A program made the translations under genes and the position numbers. Below, piece by piece: positions 1,220 through 23,403 of a stretch of DNA of 25,365 bases (position 1 is its first letter; every line of letters begins with the position of its first letter). Source of the DNA: Pigoraptor vietnamica (taxonomy: Eukaryota; Opisthokonta; Filasterea); NCBI GenBank assembly GCA_943704525.1, contig CALSCQ010001706.1:1-25365 (forward strand), in the 5' to 3' direction. Below the pieces are notes generated by a model, which worked only from the letters and a program-made list of their open reading frames with translations, was not told the DNA's origin and searched no databases.

Positions 1220-3493
1220 GGCGAATCTGAAAGGTCGACGGATGCGTTACGCCCAGTGGAGTGCCAAGCGCCGTCAAGGCACAGTTCACGCCATCGCCGC
1301 AAGCGTCTGTCTTCTCACCCACGTGCGAAAGTGAACGATGTCTGTGCAAAGCATGCAATGGTGGTTTTTTGTGTATTGTCGGCGTGCACGTGCCGCGGAC
1401 TGAGCCGTACCTGTCCGAGTAACATGGCAGCTCCCATTCGGCATCCCAGTGACTTGGCCGACTACTCCGTGACCGACCGACTGCTGCGCCGGACAGGCCC
1501 GCTGGCGAGCTAGAACTGACGGCAACCACTGACGAACGCTTTAAACGGAAGGTGGTTCTGCTTACGTGTGTGCTGAGAATGTGGCAGTGCGTAACTCATT
1601 GACAGCTCACTGGACTGAGCCCGCACTCGGGACCGTCAGGCCGGCCGCTGTGTCAGAACTGAACTCAGCCGGAGCGGCCCGGTCCCGGGTCCGGCCAGCA
1701 ATGTCCCGAGTCCTTGACTTCAGTTCTACCGGGCGAACTGATCACAGTATCGATCAGTTCGTGAGATGAGGCTCGCAGTATGCGCCGGGCGTTTTCGTGT
1801 CGCTTTCACGTACGGTTCCCGGCACGTCTTTGATGAGGGTGGACTGTACTGGCCCGAACTTTCGAGTCGGACACCGGCGTTCGTTCAGTCTCAGGTTCAC
1901 GGCCGCTCGCGGTCACCCAGTGACACTTGCCGGTGGGCCGTGAGCTCGGTGCCGGCTCTGCCGGCGGATGGGCGCCGAACCGCCGACTGGCTCGCGTGGC
2001 CACTAAATTAAATTTATCCGCCGGCGTCCTCAGTGTTCAGCAGTCGGCCGGCGTCGTTAGTCGAGTTGACCGAGTGGCGGCCTCAGTCCACTGCGACCGC
2101 AGCCGCGTCGGAAATTCGTAATTGACGGATCAGACGAACAGTTTGCCGAACGGCCCGCGGCGATTAGATGAGTCGTCGTGCTCGCCGGGTGTACTGGCTG
2201 GCCGACACACCCGCCTGACTGGCAGTTACTTGACTTCGGCACAGTGCTTCCGCCTGACCACTAGTGTGTTCGTCTGAACATAAACACTATCGCCGACACT
2301 GAACTGTTATTCAACTGAAGATCATCAGTCTGACCAGTCAGTGACTCAGTCGACACGATCAGAACATATCCCTCACTCGACAGCCCAGCGCTAAAGACAC
2401 TCCAGGTGTGTCGGTCGATATTAGTAGCCAAGGGCAACCGGCCTACTAACAGCAACCCTCGCGCCGCACTGAGTAACTCACCGGCCCGGTGGCCGCCGTT
2501 TGCATGCATGGCAAGGTATCCGTCAGTGCCGGACTGAGCTGCTGGAGGAGTGTCTCCGTCATTTCTGAGTTGATTTCCAGACTGTGCCCAACCGGCGCCG
2601 GCTCAACCTGACCGACCGGCGCCTGATAGCGCCGGCGGCGGCCTCAATTCATCGGCTGTCGCTGTAGCTCGCAGTCTATTAATATAACCCCACAGCTTTG
2701 TGCGCCGTCGGTGTCAGATTGTCAATGTGTACCCGGCGGCACTGACCGGCGGCTCTCTCCGTCTCAGTCTCCGACGCGTCCGGCCGCGGCTTCACACTTA
2801 TTGTAGGGCTCACCGTCAGGGTAACGTGCAATACGCACGCTCGCACTGCCAAAGGTCGGGTTATTACCTTCATGTCCCTGGTAATTTTTGTCAGTGGGGA
2901 TGGATCGTCGTTTTTATTTTGTATGCGATTTCTATGGCAGCTTTTTTTTATTATAATTATTTCGCACCAAGGGCCGAGCGAATCGATGTACGAAGGGACG
3001 AAAAGGGGTCAATTATTCAGTTTCAGTATAATAATTTTGCACCGAGCGGAAAGACGCCTCGGACATTTCGCACCTCGTGTCGGGCAATTTCCCAATTGGC
3101 AATACAAAGGGGAACGCGCGATCATGCCAAAAATAAATCTGACTGTGCAGACATGCATCCAAAAGAGGAAAGGGTCGCTGCTCCCCAAGCCGACCTCAAC
3201 GGGGGTGTTAGCAGCATGCAGGCGTTTGTGTAGCCAATCAAAAACCTTTTTTCAGTCCGAAATAAACTGAACAGCAGTGCTGTCGTCGAATGCATAGAAG
3301 ATTCCATACTGTCTCGGCTGACCGAAAATTATCTTCCCAAAGGACGCCTCACGGCAGGCTCGCGTGATAACAGTGAGCATTCGTGGCCCAACGTACTTGT
3401 GTGAGGCCAGTGATGGGATTTCCGCGTTTTGTAAAACGGTGCCCCTTCCGCGCCGGCGGCTGGTCGAGAGGCCGCAGACGCCCACCAACCGAC
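1220..3493. other. Divergent intergenic region
   Basis: This stretch lies between the start codons of two divergently transcribed genes, so it should hold both promoters. I see no convincing coding frame. About 1501-2900 is dense in ACTG/CAGT tetramers and in CCGGC/GCCGG words. About 2880-3060 is AT-rich, with T and A runs around 2915-2965. A CCAAT motif followed by an A run lies at 3233-3246 on the plus strand, about 250 bases before the start of the plus-strand gene; its role as a promoter element is only suggested by position. Confidence 0.6.
1501..2900. repeat. ACTG/CAGT-dense low-order repeat tract
   Basis: By hand count there are about 32 ACTG or CAGT tetramers in 1501-2400, where random sequence would give about 7. 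They continue at lower density to about 2900, mixed with many CCGGC/GCCGG words. No fixed period or long repeat unit is evident, and I found no terminal inverted repeats, so I cannot call it a transposon remnant. It has no coding character. Confidence 0.4.
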
Positions 3494-6400
3494 ATGGCGG
3501 CACCGCGTGCGACGGTCGGCGTCATCATGGCGCTAACCATTTTGTCGAGTGTGGCACCAGCGCCAGTCGTCGCCGGCAACTTATGTCAAGTTGTGCCGAG
3601 CTCCGCTGATCAGAGCATGAGCCAATGCGGCATCATCACCCCTGCGATGTTAAGTGGCTCGCCGGCAAAAACGGTGAAGGACATCTTTTCGGCGTGCTCT
3701 AACTTCGGTTCCGACGCATTCATCCCCGCCGGCACCACGGTCACCTATTGCGGTTGCCGCGCCGGAAAGGATTGCCCTGAAACGTACATGGCCGTCTGCA
3801 TGCGCTGCTGCACGGGGTACAAGAGCCCGCCCGACTGCGTGAACATCAACGAGTGCGAGGAGTCGCCGGACAAGGGCGGGTGCGACGCGACGTCGCAGAA
3901 TTGCCAGGACACGGTCGGGAGTTCCACCTGCGTTTGCAAGCCGGGCTTTGAGGAGATACCTGGCAACTCAAAGCTGTGCTCCGATATTCCCGAGTGCGCA
4001 CGCCACAAAGACACGTGCGATAGGGCCATTTCCACGTGCGTCGAACTCGCCCCGGGCTTCCGGTGCGACTGCAAGCCCGGCTACTACCACCCCGGCCCTG
4101 ACCCCAACGAGCAAAAGCTGTGTGCCGACCGAGACGAGTGCGACAAGCGCGCGCCCGAGCACAATTGCGACCCGGCCACGACGAACTGCCGCAACACCGC
4201 CGGGTCTTTCGTTTGCGACTGTGCTTCGTCCGGCTTTGAACGCGTGTCGGATTCCGCGTGCGCCAACATCAACGAGTGCGCGAGAGGCACGCACACGTGC
4301 GACCTGCGTTCGACGTCTTGTGTCGACACGTTTGGAAGCTACACGTGCCCGTGCCTCAAGGGATATCGCGCGATCCCATCCCAGTTTGGGAGCTGCGCCG
4401 AGATTAACGAGTGCGCGGAGGGAACGTCGCACTGCGAGCACATATGCACGAACACGCCGGGGTCGTTTTTCTGCAGCTGCCTGGACGGTTACATCACGCG
4501 CCCCTCCAACAGCTCGCGGTGCATCACGCCCAGGGACTGCTGCGTGACTGTCGGCGAATGCTCCGTAAGTGGCAGATGCCGCGCAAGTTTATTTCCTGGT
4601 GCAGCTGGTTCTTCCCCTCCCCCCAAAACGCCTCTCAAACGCCTCTCAAGCGCCTACTCACTCGGACCACGTTGCAGGTCGACATGTGCGTCGACTACAT
4701 GCTGTCGCTGGCGTTCGAGGCGCGTCTTCACACGGTGGCTTCGCGGCAACAGCTTGCGCTCGCGCGTCTGGACGAACTGTGCAGCATGAAGCGCGCCGAC
4801 CGCGAGACGCAGAGCCTCCTTGCCGAGTGGTCGTGCCGATTGGCCGCGATGCTGCGCAGTCCGGTCGGTCTGGACTACCTCGGCTTTCGCCAGAACGAGG
4901 TGACGCCGCTCGCGTGGTCGCAGTACGACCCCCTCATCGAAGAGTACGTCAAGATTGTCGAGGGCTACGAAGCGAACATCCGACACCTGCAGCAGCTGCG
5001 CACGCTCGGCGTCACGAACGAACAGATGCGCGCGTACATCAGCGGCAGCCTGAAGAACGCCACGAGCGACATTGTCGTCGCGATTAACGACGTGAACCGC
5101 ACGCTGACGGCGAGCCTCGACGCCGGCCTGCGGACGATCGAGTCGCGCATCGCGGAAACGAACCAAATCCTGGTCAACCAGGGTAACCAGCTGCGCGAAA
5201 TCCAGGCGTCGATTCTCGAAAACGGCGCGCTCATTCGAAAGTGCCAGGACGCGATCGAGCAGGTCAGCGAGAAGGTCGACGACCTCAAGACGGAGGTTCA
5301 GCACATCAACGTCGACGCCGACACGATGGCGGCCAAGTTCGATAACGGAAAGAAGGGATGGGATACGGACGGCAACGGAAACGTCAGCCCCTCGGAGCTC
5401 CTCGACGCTATGGTCGACATGCGTCAGCTGCGATCGGCCGCGAGCGATGCCCTGCGCGTGTTTCGAAAGGCGCAGTCGTCGCTTTCGGCAAGCGTGCCGT
5501 GCGAGGTCCTCTTTGATGTCGGGGCGCGCGAGATAGGGCCCATATCGTGGGCCAACCTACACGCCGAGCTGCACATCTGCACCGACGACACGGGCCCCTC
5601 CAAGTTTGAGATGGCGCCTTTCGACGGCATCATCTCCGTCACTGAGCTCGTGAACGGGTTCAAAGTCAAGGAGCTGCTCGAAGACGAGGCGGTTAAGCTG
5701 TGGGACAAGCTGTCGTTCACGGTCGACGGAATTTCGAAGGCGCCCGAGGTCGTGTGGCAAGTCCTCCTCGACACCGGCAGCGATCTGCTGGACAAGGCAT
5801 TTCGGAAGCTGAGCAACTCGATCCCGTCGAAGCAGGTGCGGGACGTAATGGAAAACGTCGTCGGCATCCTCGGCGTGGTCAAGGCGGGCGCGCCCATCGT
5901 GTCGTCTGCCGTGAAGAGTTGCGCGACGACGGCGGCGATTATAGGAGAGTATGGGGGCCTGCCGGGTCTGGCGATTGCGACGGTCACGGGCGACTCGCTC
6001 AAGTGCATTACGGGCATTAGGGACACGATCAAGTTTGTGCTCGCGAACAAGGACCGCATCATACAGGCGGCGAAGGCGGCGGTTAACGGCGTCATCAACA
6101 TCGTCAAGGGTATCGGAAAGGCCATCGGAGGGGTCGTCAAGTCGATCGGGAAAATCTTCGGACGCCGACGCCGGCGGGAGCTCTTTGTCGGCATTCTCGA
6201 CCAGCACGACTTGCCCTATCTGCAGCAGGTGCGCGAGTGGCTCACATCAACGATGTTGTGCGATAATGCGACTGCATGCACGCGTGCGTCATACAGAGGC
6301 GGGTCCAGCACGGACACTGACGCACGCACACACGACTTTCTCACGCGCAACGCACAATATTACGCACCTGTTAAGCCGCGTTTCCGATTCTCACGCGCAG

Positions 6401-7663
6401 CTCTCGAGCGACCTTGATCTCATGAACGCAACGACCATGTCCGTCATGGACATCGATGGCAACATACAGAACGCGACCTACCCGAGCGTCGTCCCAGAGC
6501 TCTCCATCGACGGCGCGCGTTTTGCCGCCTACGCAAAGACCTTTGCCGCAACGCTAGACAACGCCACCGACGCCGTGAGCCCGGAGACGATCGACAGCTT
6601 CGTCGAGCTGGTCGTGACACTCAACACGTACATGCGCGTGTGGCAGACGGAGGCGGTGCGCGGGCTGGGATGGGACAACGCCCGCGTCCTCGACACGGTC
6701 GCCCTCGCGCAGATGACGACGTTTGACTTTGACCGCATGCTCGCGGCGTACTCGCGCAAGATGCAGAGCGTCGCCTTCCGCACGATCGAGCAGATATCGC
6801 GCCAGGTGCGGCAGCTCCGCTACCTCTGTCTCGACAACTCGCTGGTGGCGGACGAGCTGTCCGCGCTCCCGATCACGTCGTCCCTCTCGTCCGTCGACCT
6901 GCGCACGCTCAAGGCCGCCGTCCAGTCGTCGTATCTCAGCTGCCTCACGACCCTCCCCGTCGTGAAGAACACGCGCACGGTGACCCACGAGTTCACCGTC
7001 GACGACGCCCCGGACAGCTTTGCGAGCCTCCGCACGACCGGCACGGCCGTGTTCGTGGTCCCCGTCCCGCCCACCTCTCGCTTTGGCCGCGCCCGCCTCG
7101 TCAGCGCCTCGGTCTACGTGTACCCGGCCACCATCGACGACCTCACGCCGAGCACCTTCGTGCAGCTGGACTTTTGGAAGCTGCCTGCGTCGTACTTTTT
7201 CGACTACGCGGGCGCCCGGTGGCCCTTCCTGCACACGAAGGCGTCGGCGTCGTTCAACTACCAGGCGACGACGTGCGCGCACCAGTCGGAGCCCGTGTTC
7301 GACGACAACACGCGCGTCAGTTACAGCCCGTACGGTCCCTGGAAGGTCCGCCTGACGCGCCCGCAGCCCGTCAACGTCACGGCAAGCCGCATTCGCGCAG
7401 TCCGCTTCCAGTTTGTCGTCGCGTTTGCGCAGGTGGATGCGATGGGGAGCGATCTCGACGTCATGGAGCAGCTGAAGGCAGACACGAACACGTGCCCATC
7501 GAGTGAGTGTGCCGGACACTGCAAACGCGGCTGAGTCTTTCGAAAAGTTTTGCGACATGGTAGTCGTGTGAAAATTCTCGTCGTAAGTTCGTGGGGTTGT
7601 TCTTGTGTGCTTGTGTGTGTGTGTGTGTGCGTGTGTGTGTGTGCATATGTGTGTGTGTGTGTG

Positions 7664-7696
<33 letters not shown>

Positions 7697-10255
7697 GTAT
7701 GTGTGTGTGTGTGTGCGTGTGTGTGTGTATGTGTGTGTGTGTGTGTGCGTGCGTGTGGCGTGTGCGTATGTGTATGTGTGTGTGTATGTGTGTGTGTGTG
7801 TGCGTGGGGGGTGGGGGGGGGTTGAGTGTTTGCTGCGATGTGTGTGAGTGCAGGTCGATTGATTACGTCCGGCACGCAGATTGCGACGATACCTGCGCCA
7901 CGTGCACGGGGTCGGCGGCCACGCGGTGCCTCACGTGCGCGTCCAGGCTCGTGAAGGCGCTCAACGGCACATGCGTCCCGTGCCCTGCGGCAAAGTATTA
8001 CGACGCGCTGACGGCCTCGTGCCAGGGTGGGGCGCTTGCTTGTTGTGTCTGCACTTCTCACTTTCTCACTTCTCACTCGGAGTAACACGTGCAGACTGTT
8101 ACGCGCCCGCCTGTGTCCGCTGTACGGGTGCGCTGCCCTCGCAGTGCACACAATGCGCCGGCAGTCTCACTCTCGGTGACAGCGGGTGCGCCTCAACGGG
8201 CTCTTCTTCCACTGCCCCTGCAAGCAGTGCAACGCCCGCGCCGTCCTCTTCGGTCGGCACCGGCGGCAGCATCTCGATCGCCGCGCAGAGTCCCACCCCC
8301 GCTGCGACGCCATGTGCCGCGACGACTGTTTCCGTGACGACCACCGTCACGGTCCCTGCTACAACGACGGCGACAGTGACCGTGACCGCGCCCACAGTAA
8401 CGGTGACGGCGCCTCCCGCGCCGCCGCTCACTGCGACGGTGACTGTGACGGCAGTTGCGACTTCCACGGTCACGGTTACGCCGTTCTCGACACCCCTGTT
8501 GCCTGCGCTGGGCGCCGTCTGCCCCGGGGACCCCGTCGCACAGAGCAGTTGCTTCGGTGAGTAACGCACGTCACATGGGACGATCCGTGCGTGTATGGAA
8601 GGTTCTGAACAGCCACCTCTCGTGTGTGGCCGATTGCCGAGATCCCGTGAGACTCAAGCGCGCATGTCACGCGTAGGTCTGACGCTTGCGGTGGCGGCGG
8701 ATGCCAAGACGGTTCGCTTGCAGCGCGTGAATGGCGCCATCGAGAACTGGTGTCCGTGCGCGGGCGGGTCTTGCGGTGCACCCACAACTGCCGCGTCGTC
8801 CTCGAAGCAGGCGGCGACGAGTGTCCCGCCCACGCCAGGTGCGTGTCGTTGGTTTGCACGTTTCGTAGCGGTCGAATGCCGTCAGTCGTATCTGTGTAGG
8901 GATGTGCGTCTGTGCACGCGTGCGTGTGCGTGTGCGTGTGTGTCTGTGTGTCCGTGCGTATGCCGCTTCCTGCGTGCGTCGAACCTCACCCTCCACTTTT
9001 CGTCCGCGCAGTCAATTGCGTCGTCACCGAATGGACAGCGTGGAGCGATTGCACTGCGCTGTGTGGACAGGGCCAGCAGACACGCTCGCGCACCGTGACG
9101 ACGCCCGCCGCGTACGGTGGCACGTGCGTTGCCCTTGACGAGACGCGCGCGTGCAACGTGGCTGCGTGCGTCGACTACACCGTCACGGCGATCACGAGCG
9201 CCGCAAACGACGCAGGGACCTCCGCGAATATCACCGTGCGGGTTGTGGGGTCGACGGGCCTCTCGACGCCGCCCATTACGATCGCCGGCGGTGCGTCTGC
9301 GAGGGGCGTCGCGAGCGTGTTTGCGGCGGATTTGCCGGACGTCGGAGACGTGACCATGCTCGTGGTGTCTGTGGGTTCGGATGACGACACGTGGCACTGC
9401 GACGCTTTCGTGGTCGCTGTGAAGGACGCGACGGTGGTGTTTTCGTGCGGCAGCAAGTACATCGACCGGACGCCCGTCTCCCTCTTGTCGCCGTCGGCGC
9501 GCGGTGAGTATGCCTGTCGTGTGCGATGCACGTGCGTTTGAAAAGCCGGAAATAACCCACCGTTTTCCCTTCTCCATCCGCTTTCCGTCTCTTTTTTGCC
9601 TACGCTTTCAGTCGACTGCGCCGTGACGGAGTGGACGCCGTGGTCGCGCTGCACGCGCTCGTGTGGCGGCGGCACCCAGTCGCGCGTGCGTAATGTCACG
9701 AGGGATGCGTCGAACGGCGGAGCGGCCTGCCCGAACCTCGTGGAACAGCGCCCTTGCAACGTGCCCGCGTGCCCTGGTGAGCCTGATTTTGCGAGTGTAT
9801 GTGCGCACACACGCTCTTGTCCACTCGCTTGCACGCCCACGCTCTACGACCACACAGACGCGGCAGACAAGCACAGGTGTGGCGTTGTGTTTATTGACTT
9901 ATCGCTTCTTCGGTTCCTTTGCGCAGTCGCGACGTACACGATCACCGTCGTCACAGCGAACGTCGCGGGCGCCGGCACCGCGGGGGCCGTCAACTGCATT
10001 GTTCTCGGCGAGTTGGACGACACGAGCGACGTCATGAACGTGGCGGGCTCCCTTGCCGCGGGGACGACGTGGAAGTTCCAGCGGTCAGGCAGCAAAGTGA
10101 CGGCGATTACGGGCCTTCTCGTGCAGGCCGTCCGCGCCGCCGACCCATGGACGTGCGTGTCCGTCGCCGTGTCCGGTCCTGGAATGCCCGCTGTTACGTT
10201 CCTGTGTCCCGACACGCCCATTGCCGTCGACTTTGTGCCCCTGCGGCGCGCTTGA
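3494..10255 (+). CDS. Secreted mosaic protein: 5x EGF-Ca, EF-hand/helical region, Cys-rich, TSP1-PLAT x2
   Basis: Exons: 3494-4564, 4678-6228, 6401-7502, 7880-8026, 8095-8556, 8677-8838, 9012-9503, 9612-9776, 9927-10255. They total 5,481 nt, giving 1,826 residues, and every junction keeps frame. The ATG at 3494 was preferred over the in-frame one at 3383 because it places a signal peptide at residues 1-28. Then come five EGF-like repeats (about 118-350), several with the calcium-binding NINEC or EINEC start. Exon 2 encodes a Cys-poor helical region with coiled-coil character, a canonical EF-hand loop DTDGNGNVSPSE (586-597), a degenerate partner (669-680) and a Gly/Ile/Lys helix ending in five Arg (about 824-857). 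Exon 3 (875-1242) is not recognised. Exons 4-5 hold CxxC-rich furin-like/growth-factor-receptor-type modules and a Thr/Val/Pro-rich stalk. Exons 7-9 encode TSP1 (WTAWSDCTALCGQG), PLAT, TSP1 (WTPWSRCTRSCGGG) and PLAT. There is no C-terminal membrane segment, so the protein is probably secreted or in the extracellular matrix. Its molecular partner is unknown. Confidence 0.9.
7611..7822 (+). repeat. (GT)n microsatellite with G-run, in intron 3 of the EGF/TSP1/PLAT gene
   Basis: About 200 bases of GT dinucleotides interrupted by GC and AT steps, ending in a G run at about 7805-7821. It fills the middle of the 377-nt intron 7503-7879. The repeat is GT on the coding strand. Open frames read through it (poly Cys-Val) are artefacts. 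Confidence 0.95.
8890..8965 (+). repeat. Degenerate GT/GC-rich tract in intron 6
   Basis: A short GTGCGT/GTGTGT tract within the 173-nt intron 8839-9011 of the mosaic-protein gene, again GT-rich on the coding strand. Confidence 0.8.
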
Positions 10256-10388
10256 ATCCGGTCGCGATTAACGACCCTCTGCGTCAGCGTAACTTCGTAT
10301 TCTTACTTTTTTATTTATCTTTCCGTCGTGTGTATATACGGTTGCTTTTGTCTCACGGTCGGCCCAGTCAAGCGCGTGCGAGTGTGTT
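10256..10388 (+). other. 3' flank of the mosaic-protein gene up to the transposon
   Basis: This is the 133 bases between the stop codon and the transposon end, presumably 3' UTR. It contains a T-rich stretch at about 10302-10325. No AATAAA is present, so the transposon may lie within or immediately beyond the original transcript end. Confidence 0.5.
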
Positions 10389-10412
10389 CACTGTATGTAA
10401 AAGTCGGGCCTG
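10389..10412 (+). repeat. Left terminal inverted repeat (24 bp)
   Basis: It begins CACTGTATGTAAAAG and continues with TCGGGCCTG. It is the exact reverse complement of 22491-22514. The adjacent outer bases 10387-10388 are TT. Confidence 0.92.
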
Positions 10413-10448
10413 CGCGATCGGACTTTTTGGTCGGACTTGGGTTGGGTT

Positions 10449-10541
10449 GTCGGGCCTGAAAGCTGGCCAAATCACAAAATTTTTCAGTTCGCTCAGGTCC
10501 GACTCAGCGGACCTGAAGCCCCCCCATCGACCAACCTGAAG
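10449..10541 (+). repeat. Left subterminal repeat cluster
   Basis: GTCGGGCCTG of the TIR core recurs at 10449-10458. CCTGAAAGCTGG followed by CCAAATC lies at 10455-10473, and a close copy is at 22416-22436 in the same orientation. An inverted pair CAGGTCCG / CGGACCTG lies at 10494-10501 and 10508-10515. CGGACCTGAAG (10508-10518) and GACCAACCTGAAG (10529-10541) recur near the right end. Such arrays are typical transposase-binding sites in CACTA elements; binding here is inferred. Confidence 0.75.
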
Positions 10542-10625
10542 TTGCCAAAAATAGCACGCGTTGACACGATGAAAAGCCACGCGGTCGCACAACATCTTTT
10601 CATGGTGTCGCCTTTATGAAAGGAA

Positions 10626-12034
10626 ATGGAACATCAAATGTCGTCCGAAACTGAGGCGCGTCAGGAAGAGGCGCTTGTACGCGTCTTCCTAAGGACTCGT
10701 CGCCCTAAACTTAATGATCTAGTCTCTTGCACGAACGACCCCTTGAAGGTAACGGTGCGGCCGGCCGTGAAATGTCCGCGGTTGAGGCTAGGTTTGTTCC
10801 TCACAGCATCGTTCTCCCTCACTCTCAGGCCTTGAACCGCCTCGGCCAGTGGCGGTTCCAAATGCGCAGACGACTCATAGAGACGATTCATGATCGAACT
10901 CCGGAGGGTTTTCTCAGGATGTGTGCGAGTAACCCGGAGGTTATGGCGGCGACAATTTTTGGAAAACGGTTTTATCGGGTCGCAGCATCGAGCGCAACGG
11001 GTGTGGCATCAATGCGTGCTATTGTTGCCGGGGTAAGTCTAACGTCGCTTGAAGCTGCACCATATATTGTTGTCTGACATCGCTCTGTTCGGTCCGTTGA
11101 TTTTCAGATTCGTCGTGAACTTCATGCGTTTCTCGAAGCGACGGGTAGCATCGGCTCGGAAACTGACTTGAGCGCCTTCCTGACGACCGTTCTCGAGACG
11201 ACGGACAGTTCCACGCGCGATATTGTGCCGGAGCCGCGCAGCAGTATCGAACATTCGACATCGCCACGGGACGCGACACCGGCGGCTGACAGTCGTACCG
11301 CAGCTGAGTCCATGGACGCGAGCGATGTCGTCGTGAGTTCAGCGGGGGGAGAGCGGCTGACTGCGACCGAGTTCCCCACAATTTCTTGTGCGTTTCGCCG
11401 ATGTCGGTCGAAGATTTCATTGTCTCTCTACCGCAATCGTTGGGAGGAAGGAGATTACGTGCCTTCGTTTCTCAAATTCTTCTGCGATGTCCATGCGCCT
11501 ATGGACGCGGCTTTGGAACGGCGCCATGTATCCGTACTGTTGGACGAATATTTAGTTGTACTCCGATCGGCAGCAAGCTTTCGTATGGAGGTAGAGACGT
11601 GCGCATCGATGCCCAATGTTTCTGGAATCACGGCCGTTTTCTTCGGAGTTCAGTTTGCGTTGCGACATTTGCGACGAAGGACGAATAGCGTCTCCGTGCC
11701 GGCATGGGTCGATCATCAGCACCTAAACGGTATTCTTCGCGATTATCTGTCCCATGCCCGTATGTTCGATCATGTGCGTCGAGTGGGAGATCTCTCCGCG
11801 GAGGATTGGAGTGTGGATGTGTTAAGGCCTTGCAATATCTTGAAGGCATTCTCTGTGCGCCTAGCTACATGCTTCGCTCTCGGGACAAACGATAGTGGCA
11901 CCGTTCGCCTCGGCGATTGCTTCTTGCACGAGCGACGTTCTACCGACTGCCCACATGCATACGTGTTTTGTTTGCTTCCTTTCGCCGCGGCTGCGCCAGC
12001 GTATTGTGCGGTCCTAAAAAGAACGTACGAATGA
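10626..12034 (+). CDS. Transposon gene A, unrecognised protein (417 aa)
   Basis: Exons 10626-10748, 10829-11032 and 11108-12034; all junctions are phase 0. The introns are 80 nt (GTAACG to CTCTCAG) and 75 nt (GTAAGT to TTTTCAG). The ATG at 10626 opens the frame. The N-terminal 110 residues are basic and probably helical, with many Arg, for example QMRRRLIETIHDRTPEGFL. A Ser/Thr/Glu-rich linker follows (about 140-200), then a mixed alpha/beta-like region rich in His, Cys and aromatic residues to the stop. I see no signal peptide, no membrane segment and no catalytic motif I can name. It is the only gene of the element on the plus strand, close to the left end, and its stop is 58 bases from that of gene B. 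It could be an accessory or DNA-binding subunit, but this is not shown by the sequence. Confidence 0.65.
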
Positions 12035-12092
12035 CACGACATAAATTGTCTCGTCTTTCAAAATGGCCGCAGTCAAATTGGGTCGGTCAAAT

Positions 12093-15000
12093 TTACTGCT
12101 CATCGAATCTGCTAATCTCTCCTTGCGTTACCCAGGATTCAGCGTTGTCGCGATCAAATCGCACGAGCGCGCTCCCTGGAGACCGTGCCTCCCTCTTGAG
12201 CATGATAATCCGCGCTGGCTCAACAGTCACACCTTCAATTTTAGAATGGAAAGGACAATAAGAGACCATAGACGGACGCCGAAATGAGCGGCTAGAAGTG
12301 CCGAGCAGGTAACACAACTGACCTCGTAACGCCATAACCGTCTCGTTTCGCTTTAGAGGCACACCCGTCGATATGTGCTCCAGAACGGGCCCATACACCG
12401 ATTCATCGGACTCCTTGCGCGAAAGTCCATCGGTACCTGTGGCCGGCGCCCGCATCAGTGCGTGTGTTCATGACGTCAGAAAACAGCAAGGCAAACTGGC
12501 TCGGCGGCGCCAATACTAAGCATACCGTCAGTTCTGATGGTCTGCGTTTGACCCTTCCAGCCGATAAATCGAATCGTCGTCGTGACTTCACTTGTGTCGT
12601 CCAAAACAAGCGCTTTGTACCACGTAATGTCATCGGGGCAAGACACATCGACGGCATCGATCACATCGCCAACTGCCGAGACAGCAATCAACTTAGATTG
12701 CATTCGTTCAACGCACGTGCACGACTCGAAAGGTAACAATGTACAAAATTATACCTTTGAGGTCGCCGTCGTTACGAGTAGTTCCTGCACCGAGTAACAC
12801 ACGCTCGTTAATTACAACAAACAGATTCGGTTGCGGCCGGGCGCCGGCACCAGTGGTCAGCACAAACCTGCGGTGCAAAGAAGCTTCCTGGGACGCCGGG
12901 CCGGGCTCGTACTGGATTTCCGCTTGCTTGGCCTTCGGTTGCTCCTAGTGGCTTCGGCTGGCATGCTGCTTGCGGGCCCGTCCGTGCCTGATGTCCCGAC
13001 AGCCGCGTGCTTGAGCTTCCGCATATTTGCGGCAGCCATTCCTGTCTCGTCCAAGACGGCACACTTCCGCTTGCGCATGCTGGTCGCATCTGCCACGGTT
13101 CCCGCCTCATTGACGACCACGGCGTGCTTGATCGCGCCTGCCGCCTTGGTCGCACTTGTCTCGTCCGCGCCCGCGGCGTGCTTGATCGCGCTTGCCGCCT
13201 TGGTCGCACTTGTCTCGTCCGTGCCCGCGGCGTGCTTGGTCGCGCTTGCCGCCTTGATCGCGCTTGCCGCCTTGGTCGAACTTGTGTTGTCCGCGCCCAC
13301 GGCGTGCTTGATCGCGCCTGCCGCCTTGGTCGCACTTGACTCGTCCGTGCCCGCGGCATGCTTGATCGCGCTTGCCGCCTTGATCGCGCTTGCCGCCTTG
13401 GTCGAACTTGTCTTGTCCGCGCCCACGGCGTGCTTGATCGCGCTTGCCGCCTTGGTCGCACTTGTCTCGTCCGCGCCCACGGCGTGCTTGATCGCGCTTG
13501 CCGCCTTGGTCGCACTTGTCTCGACCGCGCCCACGGCGTGCTTGATCGCGCTTGCCGCCTTGATCGGGCTTGCCGCCTTGGTCGCGCTTGTCTCGTCCAC
13601 GCCCGCGGCGTGCTTGATCGGGCTTGCCGCCTTGGTCGCGCTTGTCTCGTCCACGCCCGCGGCGTGCTTGATAGCTCTTGCCGCCTTGGTCGCGCTTGTC
13701 TCGTCCGCGCCCGCGGCGTGCTTGATCGTGCTTGCCGCCTTGGTCGGGCTTGCCGCCTTGGTCGCGCTTGTCTCGTCCGCGCCCACGGCGTGCTTGATCG
13801 CGCTTGCCGCCTTGGTCGCACTTGTCTCGTCCGCGCCCGCAGCGTGCTTGATCGCGCTTGCCGCCTTGGTCGGGCTTGCCGCCTTGGTCGCACTTGTCTC
13901 GTCCGCGCCCGCGGCGTGCTTGATCGCGCTTGCCGCCTTGGTCAGGCTTGTCTCATCCGCGCCCGTGGCGTGCTTGATCGCGCTTGCCGCCTTGGTCGGG
14001 CTTGCCGCCTTGGTCGCACTTGTCTCGTCCGCACCCGCGGCGTGCTTGATCGCGCTTGCCGCCTTGGTCGGGCTTGCCGCCTTGGTCGCACTTGTCTCGT
14101 CCGCACCCGCGGCGTGCTTGATCGCGCTTGCCGCCTTGGTCGCGCTTGTCTCGTCCGCGCCCGCAGCGTGCTTGATCGCGCTTGCCGCCTTGGTCGGGCT
14201 TGTCTCGTCCGCGCCCGCGGCGTGCTTGATCGCGCTTGCCGCCTTGGTCGCGCTTGCCGCCTTGGTCGCGCTTGCCGCCTTGGTCGCGCTTGTCTCGTCC
14301 ACGCCCGCGGCGTGCTTGATCGGGCTTGCCGCCTTGGTTGCGCTTGCCGCCTTGGTCGCGCTTGCCGCCTTGGTCGCGCTTGTCTCGTCCGCGCCCGCAG
14401 CGTGCGATTGCAATCCGTCCGCGCGGCTGTGTCGTGGAGTCACATTCCCGCTATCGCTGCACGAAGGCCGTCTCATTCAGACATCACAGTATAATAGAAA
14501 TTGCGACTCTCCTGCTTACCTTTCCTTGGGGCGACAAGTATCACTGAAGCGGAGCCCTGAGCGGCCCCGTTCTCGGTCGCGGTTGCAACCATCATGATCA
14601 TGACAACGGCTACTCGGTTCGCGGCGGTATTCCCGGTCATTGCTTCGTTCGTGACGGTCCGGATCTCCCCATCGTTCGCGGTCATGCGCAGAGCGGTCGT
14701 CGCGATGGTCGCGCTTGTCACGATCATTACGCCTGTCGCGGTCAACACTGGCATGTTGCCCGCGGTACTCATTATCGTCGAGCCGGCCGTCGTGCCGATC
14801 GTCACGCTGCTGACGGTCGCGCCTGTTCCGGTCGTCATTGGGCAGCTCCTCATCACGCATGGCTCGGGCGTTGCGCCCTTCGGGGTCGTTGCGCCTGCAG
14901 TCACGATCGTCGCGTTGCTCACGCTCTTCATGGTCGCGCTGCTCACGATCGCTCCGCCTATCGCGGTTGCGGTCGCGCTGCTCGCGGTCGCGCTGCTCGC

Positions 15001-16830
15001 GGTTGCGCTGCTCGCGGTCGCGCTGATCCGTGCGGTCGCGCTGCTCGCGGTCGCGCTGATCGCGGTCGCGCTGCTCCGCTCGCGCTGCTCGCGGTCGCGC
15101 TGATCCGAGAGGTCAGCCAGGTCGCGGCAATCCCTTTCCCCGCTCCGATTAAACTCCTCGTCCAAATTTCCTGAACGTTGGCCATGTTCCAAACCGGTTC
15201 GATGAGTCGCCGCTGGCCTTGTCGAGCCGATCTTATCCTGCAGTTGGAATGTACGGATAGGAGATCAGCCACCTCTTCACAGAAACAGCACAAACATCGC
15301 AAGATTATGAGTTGTGCGACGAAGCATTTCACCGTTCGGTCCGATACGTACGAGACGGCGAAATGTTGTTGGCACGTGGCGAACAGCCCGAGCTGCAATG
15401 CGACAAACCGACCATGGCCCTTGCAGAATATCGCTTTCCACAACGTCCATCCGCTCCTTCGTGTGTATGATAACTCTGCACGATTCCGCCGTCCCTAGAG
15501 GCGACGATTTCAGAGCATCGTCAATGATGCCCGCGCACTTCGAAAAATCGACAACTATTTCCAGACGATTCGCGTCCAGCAGCCGTGGTTCGACAAGAGC
15601 GGCGTGAAGATCAATAGGGCACCACAGCAAGTCCAAAAAGATCTTATCAGCACAGTTCGGTGCCCTCGATTCGATCGTCACGGGCGTTACGTCGTAAGAA
15701 CCGCGCGGCAGTTGCCATTCATACGTTGTGTCGCCATTACTGTCAGTTGACGGGACGAAGCTGTGCAGTGACGCGGAGTCCTCGCTGGTGCGCAACGTCG
15801 AAGTCGGCACCGAGGACGATAACGCTGCGCGCGGCGGGGGAGCGGACGAGCCGGGCGGCGACTGCAGTCCAACAGAATATAAATCCCTGCCCGAATCAAC
15901 ATCAGTCTGCCAGTCTGATGACGGCGACACCGTCCGTAGCACCTGGACGACTGCGGCCTCCGGGAAGTGCCCCTCCAGTATTGTACTCGCCGCGTCGCCG
16001 CCACACTGGCTCAGGCTGCGCAAAAGTCCCAGCGACATCGCCGTTAAGCGCGGTCTCGAAGAGAATTTCTTACAAATTGACCCGAACTGCGCGCGAACAA
16101 AAGCAGAGTATTCGGCGCCGCGCTCCTCCGCAAGAGCGACCCAATCGATCTCAGCGCCATCAGACTCGGGCAAATGGAGGCCCAGCCCAAAATGCTTCGA
16201 CCGCCAATTCCCATTCTTGGGGAACGAATATTCCGCCGCCGCAGCCAGGTTATGCGCCTCGTAATAACGCCTCTTGAAGTCAGCCGGGTCGGGATGAGAA
16301 GTAGGCGCGCCATCATCGGCCTCTACGCCCGCTCGACGAGCGCCGGGTGCGCGATTGCTCTCCGACGTCTTCTTCGCGCCCACTCCATAAAAAGTCTCGC
16401 TCGCGGTGGAAACGTGCATTCCGAGCCCGTTCTTGTACTCCATCTTGAGGCCCCTTCGTACGCCCAGAGGCAGCACGGCCGCCAATATAGCAGCCAGGTC
16501 GCTCTTGGAGGCGGCATTAACGTGCGAATTCGACGAGACCTCGTCGGTAAACTTGCAGTACAGCGAGAGAAGGAGAGCATAAACGCGAGTGGAGTCCTTC
16601 ATCTGCGTCGACCAGTAGTCGTTGGGAAGTGGTACATAGTACCCGCCGCAGCTCGGTCGTCCCTGCGGTTGCGGAGGTGGAGTGCACGTCGCGCCAGGCG
16701 GCATTCTCGTGTCAGCCGCGGCGCCGTCGTTAGGCCGACGGCCCGTGCGCTTATGCGATCCACCGAGACTAATGTCCCACGCTGCACCTGCAGATACGTA
16801 CGTGTCTACACTCTCTCTGAAGAGTGGCAT
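12093..16830 (-). CDS. Transposon gene B: Arg/Asp-rich, 18-residue repeats, Tudor-knot-like C-terminus
   Basis: Exons, minus strand: 16830-15352, 15237-14520, 14456-12868, 12784-12755, 12672-12526 and 12436-12093. Donors are GTACGT, GTAAGC, GTTTGT, GTATAA and GTATGC. Phases agree throughout except for one missing base inside exon 2; with it the total would be 1,435 residues. Residues 1-493 are unrecognised. The next part is an Arg/Asp/Glu/Gln-rich region resembling RD-type RNA-binding proteins. Exon 3 is an 18-residue repeat array (consensus KHAAGADETSATKAASAI, about residues 750-1180), followed by a basic stretch RRPSKRKSSTSPARRPRK that may be a nuclear signal. The last exons encode VGDVIDAVD, then TWYKALVLDD, then TIRFIGWKGQTQTIR, the pattern of Tudor-knot/chromo-barrel domains that read methylated lysine. 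A final region (SALVRFDRDNAESWV) may be a second small beta-barrel. Exon 4, at 30 nt, is the least certain. Confidence 0.7.
13121..14406 (-). repeat. 54-nt (18-residue) tandem array with 18-nt sub-units, coding
   Basis: The unit is 54 bases, itself built on an 18-base sub-unit encoding about SATKAA. Extra 18-base sub-units are inserted in several places, for example 14237-14290 and 14330-14380. Because the period is divisible by three, long spurious open frames run on both strands. The coding frame is fixed by splicing from the Arg/Asp exon and by the decayed units at 12980-13120 (for example KCAVLDETGMAAANMRKL), which keep the KHA..DET..KA pattern only in this frame. Confidence 0.9.
15060..15095 (-). 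other. Probable single-base frameshift in gene B exon 2
   Basis: The Arg-Asp-Arg-Glu-Gln repeat has a 15-base unit. One unit near 15071-15084 is 14 bases long. Upstream of it the RDQRDREQ frame is open and comes from the previous exon; downstream the same composition continues in the next frame to the donor at 14519. Exon length 718 is one base short of what the flanking phases need. This is either a real frameshift or an assembly error in a repeat. Confidence 0.7.
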
Positions 16831-16920
16831 GGCGTCAAGGTGTGGAGTTACGTGATCACGGCATGGAAAAATAGTCGTCCAGTTTTGGGCGGGAAAATCA
16901 AAATGTGATGGGGATTGTTG

Positions 16921-17010
16921 CGAATTTCTTGAGATTTTTACGATTTGTTGCGGATTTTTACGGATTTTTACGGATTTTTACGAATTTTTGCGGATATTTA
17001 AGGGATTTTA
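16921..17010 (-). promoter_or_regulatory. Phased 10-bp T-tract array upstream of gene B
   Basis: Nine consecutive 10-base units follow the form CGGATTTTTA, with minor variation, in exact register from 16921 to 17010. T-tracts spaced by one helical turn are the classic cause of intrinsic DNA curvature. The array lies 90-180 bases upstream of the gene B ATG on the minus strand, so a promoter or nucleosome-excluding role is plausible but inferred. Confidence 0.6.
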
Positions 17011-17349
17011 GTCTCCATTACGTTAGGGCTACAATCCCAACTGTACGCCACATTTCCTACGAATTTGGGTAGGGTTAAGCGAACGCGACCAAATTGTGTG
17101 CAGCGAAAAATGCACGAAGTACCGCAAGTTAGTACAAACTTTCATTTCTGATCAGTCCTACACTCGTCTGACGACGACTCTCGCACTGCCATTAAAATAA
17201 AATGTTGCGCTGACGCCGCCGGGCCGAGACAGTCACTATTGCTGTCGACGAGCCGGACAAAAGCTTCAATAAAATATTCACGATGACTGTCAGCTGTGCG
17301 CAGCCGCAGCCCGCGCCCCACCCCACCCCATCGCGCCCGCCCCTTGCCG
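17011..17349. other. Spacer between gene C stop and the T-tract array
   Basis: No gene is seen. Read on the minus strand this is the presumed 3' region of gene C followed by the far upstream region of gene B. On that strand AATAAA-type hexamers appear: TTTATT is present on plus at about 17269-17275 and 17194-17199, which are candidate polyadenylation signals for gene C. Confidence 0.35.
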
Positions 17350-20300
17350 TCAGGTCGCGCCCCTTTCCGTCGCGCCCCTCGCCGTCGCGCCCCTCGCCGT
17401 CGCGCCCCTCGCCGTCGCGCCCCTTGCCGTCGCGCCCCTCGCCGTCGCGCCCCTCGCCGTCGCGCCCCTCGCCGTCGCGCCCCTCGCCGTCGCGCCCCTC
17501 GCCGTCGCGCCCCTCGCCGTAGCGCCCCTCGCCGTCGTGCCCGTCGCTGTCGCGCGTGCTGCGCGTCCCCTTCCAGTCCCCCGTCCACCGCGGCGCCGAT
17601 TGGCCGCAGAGCGTTGCCGCGCCATCTCTTCGTCCGTCAGCGGAGGATTATGACGGATTTCCGCAAACGTCGACAATCCTCTGAGGCGTTGTAAGAGGTC
17701 GGGCGTGAGGGGATGTTCAACGGCAGGGTCTCCGTCAATCCCGCGCGCAGAGTATGCTAGCGGCTTGTGCCTCGAAGCGTCCGTACAGAGACAGAAGAAT
17801 CTCACGGGGGTTCCGCCGGTGCCACTCTTCCCCTCCGCACACGTGAAATGAAGATGCGCACGAGCAAGCAAGTCGTCCGGCAGCTCACCGGTCGACGCAC
17901 TAGCGTTCGCGCTGGTGCTCGCGAGCAAAACGGCGTCACACGCGAAAAGGTCCGACTCCTCTTCGGAAATCTCTTCAACCGCCTGAACCGCTTGCGAGAG
18001 CGAGAACCCACTCGACCGAAAGGCGCAGGGCGCAAACTGGATGTCCCCTACGTCTCGGTCGCACCATATGGAACATTACAACAAGTACAAAGTCGCGACA
18101 TCGGTGAAATTGATACTCACCGAAAGTCGGAACCGTGGCGTGCTCCCATAGACTCCTTTTCGACTGCAGCCGCTCACCGCCGCCATGCCCACGGCGCGCT
18201 TTGGCAGCATCGAGAAGCTTACCACGGAGAGCGCAGAAGAACGCATGTGCCCGTATCTTCGCGAAGTTCCCGCGTAGTCCTTGGAAAACGCGAATCAAAC
18301 CCTTGTGACGCCCGATCAAGCTCTCTATCCCATTTTCGTGGGCGGCGAGCATCGGAATCGGAAACTTCCGCAAAAAGCGCCAGTGATGCGCAACGAGGTT
18401 GTGGAAATATAGAGACGAGAGAAGGGAATGCAGCAATTTCGCTGCGTGCAAATAGGCAACTGAAGCTCAGCACAAAACTCATAGGCCAGCAGAAGTGCGA
18501 CTGACGTACCGAGAGTCGTCATGTTTTTCGTCGACAGAGGTACAGACGTCCCATAACGGTCGTCAACGGTGGAGGGCACACGCACGGAATCGTGCTCGTC
18601 GCCAAATGCACCCCCTCCGCCGTCCAGCTCCGGATCGCTGTCATCGCCGGCTTCGCCAGTATGATCCTCTTCGGTGCTCGTCGGCGGCGGTCCGCTTAGC
18701 GCCTCACCAATGTTGATGTTCAGTGCGGCGAAATACGTCTCAAAGCAATCGGCAGGGACGGTCGGATCCGCGATATCTGAGGAACAAGGCAAGCCATCAG
18801 GTAAGATACACATTTCGCATAAAAGATGCAAAACATTACACACACGCACCAGCCGAGTACGTGAATTCCGTGGGGGCCACACATCGCCCTCGACTCCTTG
18901 AAGAAATGCACACTACACCGCTTCGCTCACTCGCATCATCAGGCAGCGCCGCCGTAAGCACGGCAACGTAGCGGGGACACGCTAGCTCAATCGACGCAAC
19001 CCGCAGACCACAAACGACGACTTCCAGGCTGTTATCGTCACTGTCGCACAACCAGTCACCAATAATTTCGAGCCAATCGCCACCTTGACGACACCCACGC
19101 GTCATTGAGATGGACGAAATCGAAGCCGCTGGGATGGTACGAAAATGCAATCAGGGAAGCCGTGCACAAATCAGCACACGATAAAGCATACATACCCCTC
19201 ACTATCGTGAACGCGTCCTTCAGCAAGACAAGCGTGCTGTTGTTACGCTTAATCGCGAGATCGCGGGACGCCACGAGGCCCGCCAATCGAAAGCTATCCA
19301 CCTGCTGAGCCTCCTCTTCCCCAAGGGCGACGTGTACGAGCAGGGATACAACCGTGTCGCTGTGCTCGATAACCTTTGCGACCGTCAGCCCCTCAGCGAC
19401 AACCGCACTCGGGTCGAACGAAAGCAGACCTTCGCCAGAGAGGTACACGACGTGCTCGCCGTTGTTTACAAGACGACGCGGCTCAACACCTGCAAGTAAA
19501 AATCCATCCTTTGTCGCGAGGCCTGTAAGAGAGGCGCGGACATAAGCAAATGTCTGCATGCATTCAAAGCAAACGCAACGGCCGCCTACAAAGATGCAGA
19601 CCTGCTGTGCTGGGCAACTTAGTGCCCGCCGCAACCTGCATCAGCGCCCAATTCGCGAAATATACGCTGCAGAGCATCGATTGAACCCAACGATGCGCGT
19701 GCGGATAGTTGTCATTGTAGCCCGTGACATCCAATATGCGCAGGCACTCTAGCATGTCGCGATCCCGATCGAGAAGTGGGATGGACGGTTGATCGGTTGG
19801 GCGCAGGGCTTTCGGGGCCCTGTCGGGACGACACCTAATGTTAGTGACATAAAATATTGGCTCCAAACTGCACAGATGAGTTCACTCACAGTGCGAGGTA
19901 GAGACGAAAGTAGGTGCCATTCTGCTTCTTGAGGGGCACGCCCACGGGCAGATTCATCTTCTCGCAGCGAACTCGAAATTCGGTCGCTTGTGCCGCTGTT
20001 CCACCGGCCAACTTGATGAGGTCCGGCAGAGCCTTTCCCACAATGATCTTCGTGACCGCCATGACATTGTGTAGAATACTCGGCGCCGCCGAGCAGTGGT
20101 CCACGTACTCCTGACCGTCGAGAACGTTCATAGCGTCGGGTGGGAGAGCGTCTGGATTGAGAATCCCGCCGGACTTGGCGCCGTTGCACCGAAGTTGTAG
20201 CGAGCGAATGTGGGCCTCGCGCTCGGCGACTGTAGCCTGTGTGGCAGCCTCGGACGCTGGAAAATCCGTCATTCAAGGTTCAGCCCAGTCATTTTGCATA

Positions 20301-21997
20301 GAACAGGTCTGGAATTAGAACAGCCGACAGAGGCAACTCACCGAGATAAGCCTTTTTGAGTCCTTGAAACGCAATGCCGTCCCTACGGATGTCCGCAAGT
20401 TCCACGACCTTCGCCTTCGGGATGACCGCGATCCCACCCCACTCAGTCGAGCGGAGGGAGCACCCATCACACCTGCAAGCCGGCCGCTGATCAACGTATG
20501 CCTACTAACATGATTGCATACCGTGCAACCAGTATAGAAGAACTGCGTACCTCGAAAGCCCCTTTTTTTCGAAAAGGATCTGGTGCATCTTGTTATCCTT
20601 ACACAGAATGACATGAACGCACCGGAACGCAACTCTGAGGTGCTTGAATTCGTCGGGGAGGTTCACGGCGGCCAGCTCATAGAGCGACGCCAATGGCTTG
20701 TGAAGCTCGCTGATGAAGAGTGGAACGTACTCGCCAATGTTCTCCTCACGCGCATTGATCTCAACGAATGGCACGGTGTCTGCACCAAAAGGATAGAATT
20801 CAGAGGATGCTGTCGTGGGATGCTGACACATTGCACGGTACCGTACATCGACGGACATTACGGACTCACCCGAGCGCCCTCCTTTAAACAAGAAGGGAGT
20901 GACCTCGACGATGCTCCTCGTGATCATTGTTGTAGCAGCCGCTCGTCCTGCAAGTGCTCCGTCGACGGACACGACGTCGAAATACGGCACGATGAGCAAG
21001 TTGTCGTCGTCAATGCCCTCGTCGCCGTCCAGCCGCAATTGTGCGAAGCGGCGTTGAAGCCACAACGGCATCAGTTCGAGCGACGGAAGGTTGACCGTTC
21101 CCATATTGGGCCGTGGCCCGTTCAGCCCGACACTGAGTAGCCGTCCCGTGATGCCGGCGAGACGGATAATGAACTCGATGACGTCGCGGTAAAGGTCAAC
21201 GATGATGATGCGGTCGCGGAAGGCGGGGTTGTTATAGTTCAACTTTGACCCGGCCGGCATGCCGTGCTCTATGGCGCGCGAAATGATCGTCGGCGATACC
21301 GTTCGAGCGGCCTGAAGGTTCGAAGGTGCGCCGACTCCGATGTCGTCGCGATCATACGACTCGTACATGATCTGAAAGACAGAAAAAATAAGTCACGAGG
21401 GACCAGTTGCGCTAAGAAAACACCGGCAATGCATATACGGGAGCAACATACCAGACTGTCGTCGATAAGACGTTGCCTGGCTGTACCGCATCCAAGAAGG
21501 TGTATCTTGTCCGCGTACAACGCCTGCAACGCTCGCCTGTATTCGCGAAGGGCCGCCACCGATATAGCGCGAAGTTCCTTCTCGCGGTCGGCGGAAATCG
21601 TCGAAATAATGTAGTACTTGATGCGATCGGCACTCCAATTACGCCTCTCAGAGTCGGACAGCGCCCGATTGAGCCACTTGCGAAAACTCTCCTCGCCGAG
21701 TCCAGCGGCGTTGTGGTACAAGTCATCGCCAAACGCATCGTTCATGGCGTTCCATGTATCGCGGATGGGCGATTTCTTCGAGGTGGAGTGGAAATAACGT
21801 CCCAACGCGACTGCGACGCATGGCTGCAGCGCGTCGTGATCGAACGCAGCGCCGAATTCGTTGTCGCAGTCTTCAGCGCGAGACGAAAAGCTGGGGAAAA
21901 CCAGACGTTTGTCGGGCGCATCGGGCACGCGAACCTCAACCAGAAGATGTCGCGACTTTACGCGCACCATACCCAAACGCGTATACTTCTGGGACAT
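17350..21997 (-). CDS. Transposon gene C, unrecognised 1,341-aa protein (candidate transposase)
   Basis: Exons, minus strand: 21997-21452, 21371-20551, 20472-20342, 20256-19890, 19834-19666, 19604-19196, 19128-18850, 18776-18510, 18459-18121 and 18047-17350. They total 4,026 nt and every junction is phase-consistent; the nine introns are 50-85 nt with GTATGT, GTACGC, GTGAGT, GTACGT or similar donors. The acceptor of exon 6 is a CAGCAG tandem, so it may start three bases later. The protein has no signal peptide. Features seen: a helical N-terminal region (residues 1-182); an alpha/beta region with several Asp-containing strands (about 183-455, for example RIIIVDLYRDVIEF and NLLIVPYFDVVSVDG); a Cys cluster C-x6-C-x-C-x2-C at about 680-694; a strongly acidic linker at about 935-965; a His/Arg-rich helical region around 1000-1050; and an Arg/Gly/Ala/Thr-rich tail. 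As the largest gene, reading inward from the right end, it is the best transposase candidate, but no DDE triad can be assigned by eye. Confidence 0.78.
17356..17550 (-). repeat. 15-bp minisatellite (13 units) encoding the gene C tail
   Basis: Thirteen units of the plus-strand form CGCGCCCCTCGCCGT run from 17356 to 17550. The outer units carry substitutions (first unit TTTCC, last two AGCG and CGTG). In the gene C frame each unit gives a TARGA-type pentapeptide just before the stop codon. All other frames across it are open as a by-product. Confidence 0.9.
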
Positions 21998-22415
21998 TCT
22001 TGCAGCCGGGATCCGCACCCTGCATCTTTGTGTGAGTGTGCGCCCTTTTCTGAGTTGGGCGCGGCTTTTAGGCCGAACAGGGGCTAAATTTAGTGCAATC
22101 GGACCTGGGCGCTTGCCTTTTTGGGATATCCTCAGGCCCCCCCCTGGCTCGTCGTGCGAGGTCCGCTCGCTTTCGCCGTGGTCCGCTTCGACTTTTCTCC
22201 CACAGGTGCGCAGTCAATTAAGCTGGTAGGAGTCTTCGCACACTCCCCCTGCGTCTATGTACAAAAAATTTCGATGCGCACCCGTGGGTATTTTTTTCTA
22301 GACGACCTCAAGTGCCGAGTAGTCGTCCTTGACTACCTATCACGATGATCCACACGTGGGGCTGATCAATACATTCACTATGGATCAGGCTACCCGTGAC
22401 CAACCAATTGACCAA
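21998..22415. promoter_or_regulatory. 5' region of transposon gene C
   Basis: No coding frame stands out between the gene C ATG and the right subterminal repeats. By position it should hold the gene C promoter. It contains a C-run at 22136-22144 and a TTTTTTT stretch near 22291-22297. No sharp element is identifiable. Confidence 0.4.
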
Positions 22416-22450
22416 CCTGCAAGCTGGGTCCAAATCGGACCTGAAGGTCC
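22403..22450 (+). repeat. Right subterminal repeat cluster
   Basis: GACCAACCTGCAAG lies at 22410-22423, CCTGCAAGCTGGGTCCAAATC spans 22416-22436, and CGGACCTGAAGG lies at 22436-22447; each has a copy near the left end in the same orientation. GGACCTGAAGGTCC (22437-22450) is a perfect inverted repeat with a 2-base centre. Confidence 0.75.
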
Positions 22451-22490
22451 AACCAAATGGTCCGAGCTAACCTAAAAGGCCGTTACTCAT

Positions 22491-22514
22491 CAGGCCCGAC
22501 TTTTACATACAGTG
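22491..22514 (-). repeat. Right terminal inverted repeat (24 bp)
   Basis: On the plus strand it ends TTTTACATACAGTG. It is the exact reverse complement of 10389-10412 and is followed by TT, matching the two bases outside the left end. Confidence 0.92.
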
Positions 22515-22659
22515 TTCCCTATCAGCTTTCCGTGTCTTGGCCATTGCAAACGCCAACAAACACACAGCCTTTCTACCGTGGAGAACAACACCATGCGCTC
22601 AGACAACGCCATTGAGGACGTCAGTTAGGCTGCCAGTGGGCTGGTGACCTCGCACAGCT

Positions 22660-22816
22660 ATGTGCATCCTATCAGCCGAATCCATTCGCCGTTATTTCTA
22701 CGCACGCATTGTTGGCGATGCACCAACATTGCGTCTCTACGCCCTCCTTGCAACATGGGTGCTACTGCCACTGGCCGCGACGGAAGAATGTGTGTGTGTG
22801 TGTGTGTGTGTGCGTG

Positions 22817-22870
<54 letters not shown>

Positions 22871-22902
22871 TGTGCGTGTGTGTGCGTGTTTGTGTTTATG
22901 TT

Positions 22903-22982
<80 letters not shown>

Positions 22983-23403
22983 CGTGCGCAATTCAATTGT
23001 AGCTCAAAGTACTAACGACATTTCGCAGACGTCCCTTCGCAGCCTCGTGAGAGTAATGCCGCCATCGAGTCGTATGTCCATTGGTTCCACGAGCGAGGGG
23101 GTCGTCTCGCGGGCGTGTACCCCAAACCATCGGCAAAGGGCGGGCTGGGCATGTTTGCGTCGCGTCCCCTCGAGGTGTGTGGTGCCTCGTTGTGTGTGTT
23201 TGCGTCAGTATGTGTGTGTGTGTGTGTGCCAATCTTCATTTTGCGCGTGTGCATGTGCGTGTATGTGAGGCGACTGTACGTGTGTGAGTGTGCATGTGTG
23301 TGTGTGCGCGTGTGCAATGTGTGTATGTGCGTGTGCGTGTGCAATGTGTGTATGTGCGTGTGCGTGCGCACGCGTGTGTGCGTGTGCAGTGCGTGCGTGT
23401 ATG

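Follow-up and report, generated by a model that had tools for sequence, protein, structure and literature searches.

The 25,365-bp contig CALSCQ010001706.1 of Pigoraptor vietnamica (assembly GCA_943704525.1) raises the question of which protein could move the large element that it carries at positions 10389 to 22514. The whole contig, designated C693 in the searches of the genome (1,395 contigs, 32.5 Mb), is referred to here as the window. In an earlier note, the element was described as a CACTG-ended transposon with three genes (A, B and C) that match no transposase, representing either a new family or a deeply diverged CMC lineage. Of these two options, the residues found in gene C favour the second over an isolated family. 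The element is probably a cut-and-paste DNA transposon of a deeply diverged lineage within the CACTA/EnSpm-Mirage-Chapaev-Transib (CMCT) clade (PMC12730594), with gene C as putative transposase and the other genes in proposed accessory roles. Both ends are directly visible, a second copy is present in the genome, nonsynonymous substitution rates (dN) between the copies are below the synonymous ones (dS) in the compared parts of the genes, and gene C, once spliced, contains the residues of the clade in order and with a local spacing like that of RAG1.

The terminal inverted repeats (TIRs) were confirmed as perfect over 24 bp. The left arm (10389..10412, plus strand) starts with CACTG and is 100% complementary (24 of 24 bp) to the right arm (22491..22514, minus strand), giving the termini CACTG...CAGTG. 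The flanks, GTGTGTT/CACTG and CAGTG/TTCCCT, have TT as their sole shared sequence (10387..10388 and 22515..22516), a putative 2-bp target site duplication (TSD) that was testable at one copy and for which the chance of a match is 1/16. Subterminal repeats, also reported before, were located by a motif scan for TCGGRCCTGA. They are found on the left within 10404..10516 (at 10404, 10450, 10493 on the minus strand, and 10507) and on the right within 22435..22499 (at 22435 and, on the minus strand, 22490). Allowing one mismatch, the motif occurs eight times in the window, always within the element and in both orientations (8/8, counted without a shuffled control), and six of these eight words are found within 200 bp of one of its ends.

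A search of the genome with the TIR and the genes revealed a second, diverged copy on contig C102 (10,964 bp), which covers the element from inside gene A through the right TIR. A 21-mer of the TIR (up to 3 mismatches) was found at three places, namely both ends of the element in the window and one end on C102, while the same word read backwards gave none. Nucleotide homology between the copies stops exactly at the right TIR (22514 in the window, 10817 on C102), the next bases being different, and the right 315 bp of the element are 90% identical to the C102 copy. No other place in the genome matches the left 312 bp; therefore, the left end of the C102 copy was not found. It lies off the contig, and exons 1 and 2 of gene A are absent from C102. 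All three genes are represented in both copies. Pieces of genes C, B and A had no third place in the genome at E 0.01; a match on C1225 (E 0.046, 49 aa), the surroundings of which look unrelated, was taken as chance. Relatives were confirmed neither in the viral_contigs collection (0 of 10 and 0 of 41 candidate stretches) nor in genome_contigs (0 of 59). The genome_contigs search and the viral_contigs search with 10 stretches were made with peptides from near the N-terminus only, and these collections are poor sources for a eukaryotic element. Four plasmid matches (E 6 to 10) were also taken as chance.

For the gene models, the two copies were aligned, and codon periodicity and splice sites were then read. 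Gene C (17350..21997, minus strand), the inferred CMC-type DDE transposase, consists of 11 exons encoding 1,294 aa according to the splice sites kept in both copies, instead of the 1,341 aa given earlier. Exons 1 to 6 are located at 21997-21452, 21371-20870, 20779-20551, 20472-20342, 20256-19890 and 19819-19602, exons 7 to 11 at 19522-19196, 19128-18850, 18776-18510, 18441-18121 and 18047-17350. Copy 2 has every one of the ten GT-AG introns, and the frame is open in both copies. Exon bases are 86.7% identical between the copies, compared to 68.0% for intron bases, and protein identity is 84%. For gene C, dN was 0.088 and dS 0.363 over 1,211 codons (dN/dS about 0.24), for exon 3 of gene A 0.187 and 0.349 over 291 codons, and for exon 1 of gene B 0.146 and 0.397 over 491 codons. 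Since dN is below dS in the compared parts of all three genes, these values, which are pairwise counts between two copies without a significance test, point to purifying selection, most clearly on gene C. Intron 2 of gene C (20780-20869), with lengths of 90 and 93 nt in the two copies, is in frame and free of stop codons in each of them; therefore, a transcript retaining it would stay open. The end of the gene (17350-17600) is a 15-bp repeat array encoding TARGA-type pentapeptides, with a match to the GETHR family; in copy 2 the array differs in sequence and length.

According to Kojima 2025 (PMC12730594), CMCT transposases have C(2)C and H(3-4)H motifs between the second catalytic aspartate (D2) and the glutamate (E), and the elements have mostly CA..TG termini and TSDs of 2 to 5 bp. 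The spliced gene C contains candidate residues in this order: D319, D411, C427-x2-C430, H532, H969-x4-H974 and E995. The first aspartate, D1 (D319, in VVSVDGA), is encoded in exon 2 (20870..21371) within a run of 55 aa identical in both copies (309-363), and D2 (D411, VILCKDN) in exon 3 (20551..20779) within an identical run of 26 aa (399-424). C427-x2-C430 in exon 4 (20342..20472) is the sole CxxC in the 1,222 aa examined, and H532 (ILHN) in exon 5 (19890..20256) lies in an identical run of 22 aa (520-541). H969-x4-H974 and E995 (IESLIGRHKG), encoded in exon 10 (18121..18441), fall in the longest identical run (68 aa, 961-1028), so that the two longest unchanged runs between the copies hold D319 and the H969, H974 and E995 group. 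Only one H-x3-4-H is present in the same 1,222 aa, and copy 2 contains one CxxC and two H-x3-4-H. The counterparts in RAG1, numbered on a PDB chain, are D708, C727, C730, H795, H937, H942 and E962, preceded by a first aspartate (D600) outside the PDB stretch read. The choice of D319, H532 and E995 in gene C leans on the motif contexts of EnSpm and RAG1. From D2 to the first cysteine the spacing is 16 residues in gene C and 19 in RAG1; both proteins have H-x4-H, followed by E after 21 and 20 residues, respectively. The element combines CA..TG termini with, at motif level, DDE, C(2)C, H(3-4)H and a further H.

Profile searches did not detect a transposase in this protein, and the earlier statement that none is matched holds for the Pfam and PDB profiles; it does not hold for the spliced gene C at the level of residues. 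No match of good coverage to a known transposase profile was obtained in Pfam for gene C, for gene A or for the searched exon 1 of gene B. Exon-by-exon Pfam and PDB searches with gene C yielded no transposase, and the Pfam scan gave no match to PF02992 (Transposase_21). The Pfam and PDB profiles may be too narrow for members of the CMCT clade. A MAFFT alignment of exon 10 with RAG1 was misaligned and was not used.

Several results weigh against placing the element in the CMCT clade. Neither the whole gene C nor its catalytic pieces matched a Pfam transposase family, PDB sequence searches with gene C gave nothing convincing, and a genome-wide search with PF02992 gave no match, although none was obtained with any of the 14 controls either. 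The best local alignment of the whole protein to RAG1 is in the wrong register and its score was equalled in 17 of 500 shuffles; exon 10 against RAG1 gave the same wrong register (8/2000 shuffles scoring as high). The bare core signature was present in 84 of 2000 shuffles of the protein (78 of 2000 with D1 added), and a stricter signature, found in one of 2000, had been written after the E block was seen. The distance from D2 to E (584 aa) far exceeds the 254 aa of RAG1, C427 and C430 are located shortly beyond the border of a long unchanged run, and the 50-aa window of H532 shows middling conservation (0.88). The putative TSD has just 2 bp and was observed at one copy. An empty site, which the earlier note had suggested looking for, was not found in the assembly: the joined flanks matched their own two places and one stretch on C740 (71 bp, 79% identical), which covers the end of the neighbouring gene only. 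Because no profile detects a transposase and RAG1 can be compared only weakly and in the wrong register, the evidence for gene C is at motif level, and membership of the element in the CMCT clade is likely rather than proven.

The missing profile match, the frequency of the bare signature in shuffles, the very long D2-E gap and the out-of-register RAG1 comparison would also suit a new eukaryotic transposase superfamily outside the CMCT clade, in which the nuclease moving the element shows the CMCT residue pattern by chance only. This is unlikely, as all seven RAG1-comparable residues and the first D follow the expected order at local distances similar to those of RAG1, the majority of them in the longest unchanged blocks, and CACTG ends with a putative short TSD fit CMC elements. 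A Transib/RAG1-like rather than a CACTA-like transposon is a different kind of alternative, since the choice falls inside the CMCT clade and overlaps with the reading preferred here. The ends start with CAC, and YFHNLVAH...ES in gene C resembles YFHKTLAH...ES of RAG1 by eye. It is nonetheless quite improbable: Transib and RAG-like elements have 5-bp TSDs (PMC7204232), whereas the flanks here share TT only, no RAG2-like gene was recognised, and the local alignment is out of register.

Alternatively, the element could be a carrier that is non-autonomous or has decayed, with TIRs moved by another enzyme and with three genes captured from the host. Just two copies were found in the assembly, and between them the repeats in gene B and at the end of gene C differ, with a 7-nt indel in B. 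All three genes are present in both copies, however, the searched pieces have no third place at E 0.01, and the frame of gene C, which encodes residues of the nuclease type, is open in each copy; such a carrier is very unlikely. A large multi-gene eukaryotic element might further be expected of KDZ, Plavaka, Kolobok or Academ, and these are the least probable of all. No Pfam transposase match was obtained for any of them (Academ was checked by Pfam alone), and the TTAA target of Kolobok is absent. KDZ elements have TSDs of 7 to 8 bp (8 bp in Zisupton and 7 bp in Kyakuja), and Plavaka ends with TGT..ACA or CATCA..TGATG (PMC12730594); here, TT only and CACTG...CAGTG were observed, and the KDZ domain was not found in the Pfam scan.

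Two E-set/TIG-like domains (18850..19522, minus strand; about aa 665-772 and 773-866) are suggested by Pfam matches of exons 7 and 8 of gene C and would represent an insertion between D2 and E. Exon 7 of copy 2 matched PF09099 with 24.1 bits (E 4.8e-5), above the cut-off of 22, while the copy in the window reached 19.4 bits (E 1.4e-3). For exon 8, the match to TIG covers profile positions 2 to 84 of 84 but remains below the cut-off of 20.9 (16.4 and 16.1 bits; E 0.009 and 0.011); exon 8 of copy 2 also matched K1-lyase_Rider (E 0.016). Both PF09099 and TIG presumably belong to the E-set clan. Ten shuffled sequences (five per exon) gave no E-set match and one unrelated match at E 0.073. Searched as part of the whole protein, both matches were weaker (E 0.061 and 0.13), a profile comparison of the two exons with each other showed no similarity (probability 0.4%), and the three weak PDB matches of exon 8 included no E-set protein. 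When the copies are compared, both exons show lower conservation (0.72 and 0.80 in 50-aa windows) than the blocks with the motifs. An insertion of two Ig-like domains is thus probable, the second domain being less certain than the first. A precedent for Ig or TIG domains in transposases was not found among the open-licence PMC papers listed.

The CMCT reading suggests how the gene products might act. The product of gene C is predicted to fold as an RNase H-like DDE nuclease, in which C427/C430 and H969/H974 would hold zinc as in RAG1. It would bind and pair the TIRs, cut and excise the element and join its ends to a target staggered by two bases, leaving the 2-bp duplication (TT). In En/Spm, TNPA is an accessory protein acting on subterminal repeats, and the products of gene A and/or gene B may have a TNPA-like role on the TCGGRCCTGA repeats. 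Gene A (10626..12034, plus strand) was confirmed to encode 417 aa in three exons (10626-10748, 10829-11032 and 11108-12034); no family was found for it in Pfam.

Of gene B (12093..16830, minus strand), previously put at about 1,435 aa, the first exon (16830-15352, 493 aa) is supported by both copies and matched no transposase family in Pfam. The remainder consists of low-complexity, charged R/D/E and ATKAAS-like repeats, in which the copies differ by a 7-nt indel, among other indels. A long repeat array (ATKAASAIKHAAGADETS-like, 12857-14476) has many alternative registers of alignment with the copy on C102. The Tudor-knot-like end noted earlier is visible by eye in the 3' exons (about 12670-12093), which look like Tudor-knot or PWWP domains; the Pfam profiles did not confirm it, as two of the pieces had no match and the third matched PWWP with an E of 0.16. 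Gene B may read chromatin.

Among known systems, EnSpm/CACTA elements including CNIRT6 are close to the element. They share CACTA or CACTG ends (here with subterminal repeats), a short TSD (putative here), an intron-bearing transposase with DDE, C(2)C and H(3-4)H, and a second open reading frame (ORF). The Cryptococcus element CNIRT6, which is mobile and belongs to CMC, likewise has 24-bp TIRs starting with CACTG, but 3-bp TSDs instead of the putative 2-bp one here (PMC12810828), and plant CACTA transposases have up to eleven exons (maize) with a second ORF alongside (PMC4158355). The element differs from EnSpm/CACTA in its three genes, in the 584-aa D2-E gap with E-set/TIG-like domains and in the lack of profile similarity. 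With Transib, RAG1 and RAG-like proteins it shares the order and local spacing of D, CxxC, H, H-x4-H and E and the CAC start; it differs in the TSD and in the lack of a reliable sequence alignment and of a visible RAG2 partner. For CNEST, a Cryptococcus element of the CMC supergroup, Repbase likewise gave no match, and its CMC transposase was then identified by aligning motifs (PMC12810828); its gene is about 4.4 kb. Plavaka, ESTA and Lanisha are divergent lineages tied to the CMCT clade by the same residues, Plavaka having other ends and ESTA TA TSDs (PMC12730594); these and CNEST were compared by the published descriptions only. Thus, in view of CNIRT6, CNEST and plant CACTA, the element ends, the exon number and the motif-based recognition have precedents, while none was found for the D2-E insert among the open-licence papers listed.

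We tentatively propose that the element represents a new CMCT superfamily, characterised by a DDE transposase with a tandem E-set/TIG pair between D2 and E and a partner with a chromatin-reader-like end, although the odds are somewhat against this. RAG1 has its source among the CMCT transposases, and such a superfamily, if real, would be a branch helping to root the EnSpm/Transib/RAG1 tree. A lineage beyond the reach of profiles that keeps the residues of the clade would reveal the parts that cannot be dispensed with, and a nuclease with an Ig-like insertion would be an unusually built enzyme of this kind. The failure to find a transposase in an intron-rich element can in part be a problem of gene models.

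An open frame (9542-10255) with a spondin-like thrombospondin-1 domain is part of the left neighbourhood (3377-10255), and its stop codon is separated from the start of the element by 133 bases. Further to the left, calcium-binding EGF domains are encoded in the frame 3377-4789. Long CA/GT dinucleotide tracts, open in several frames, flank the element on both sides (7560-7860 and 22700-23400).

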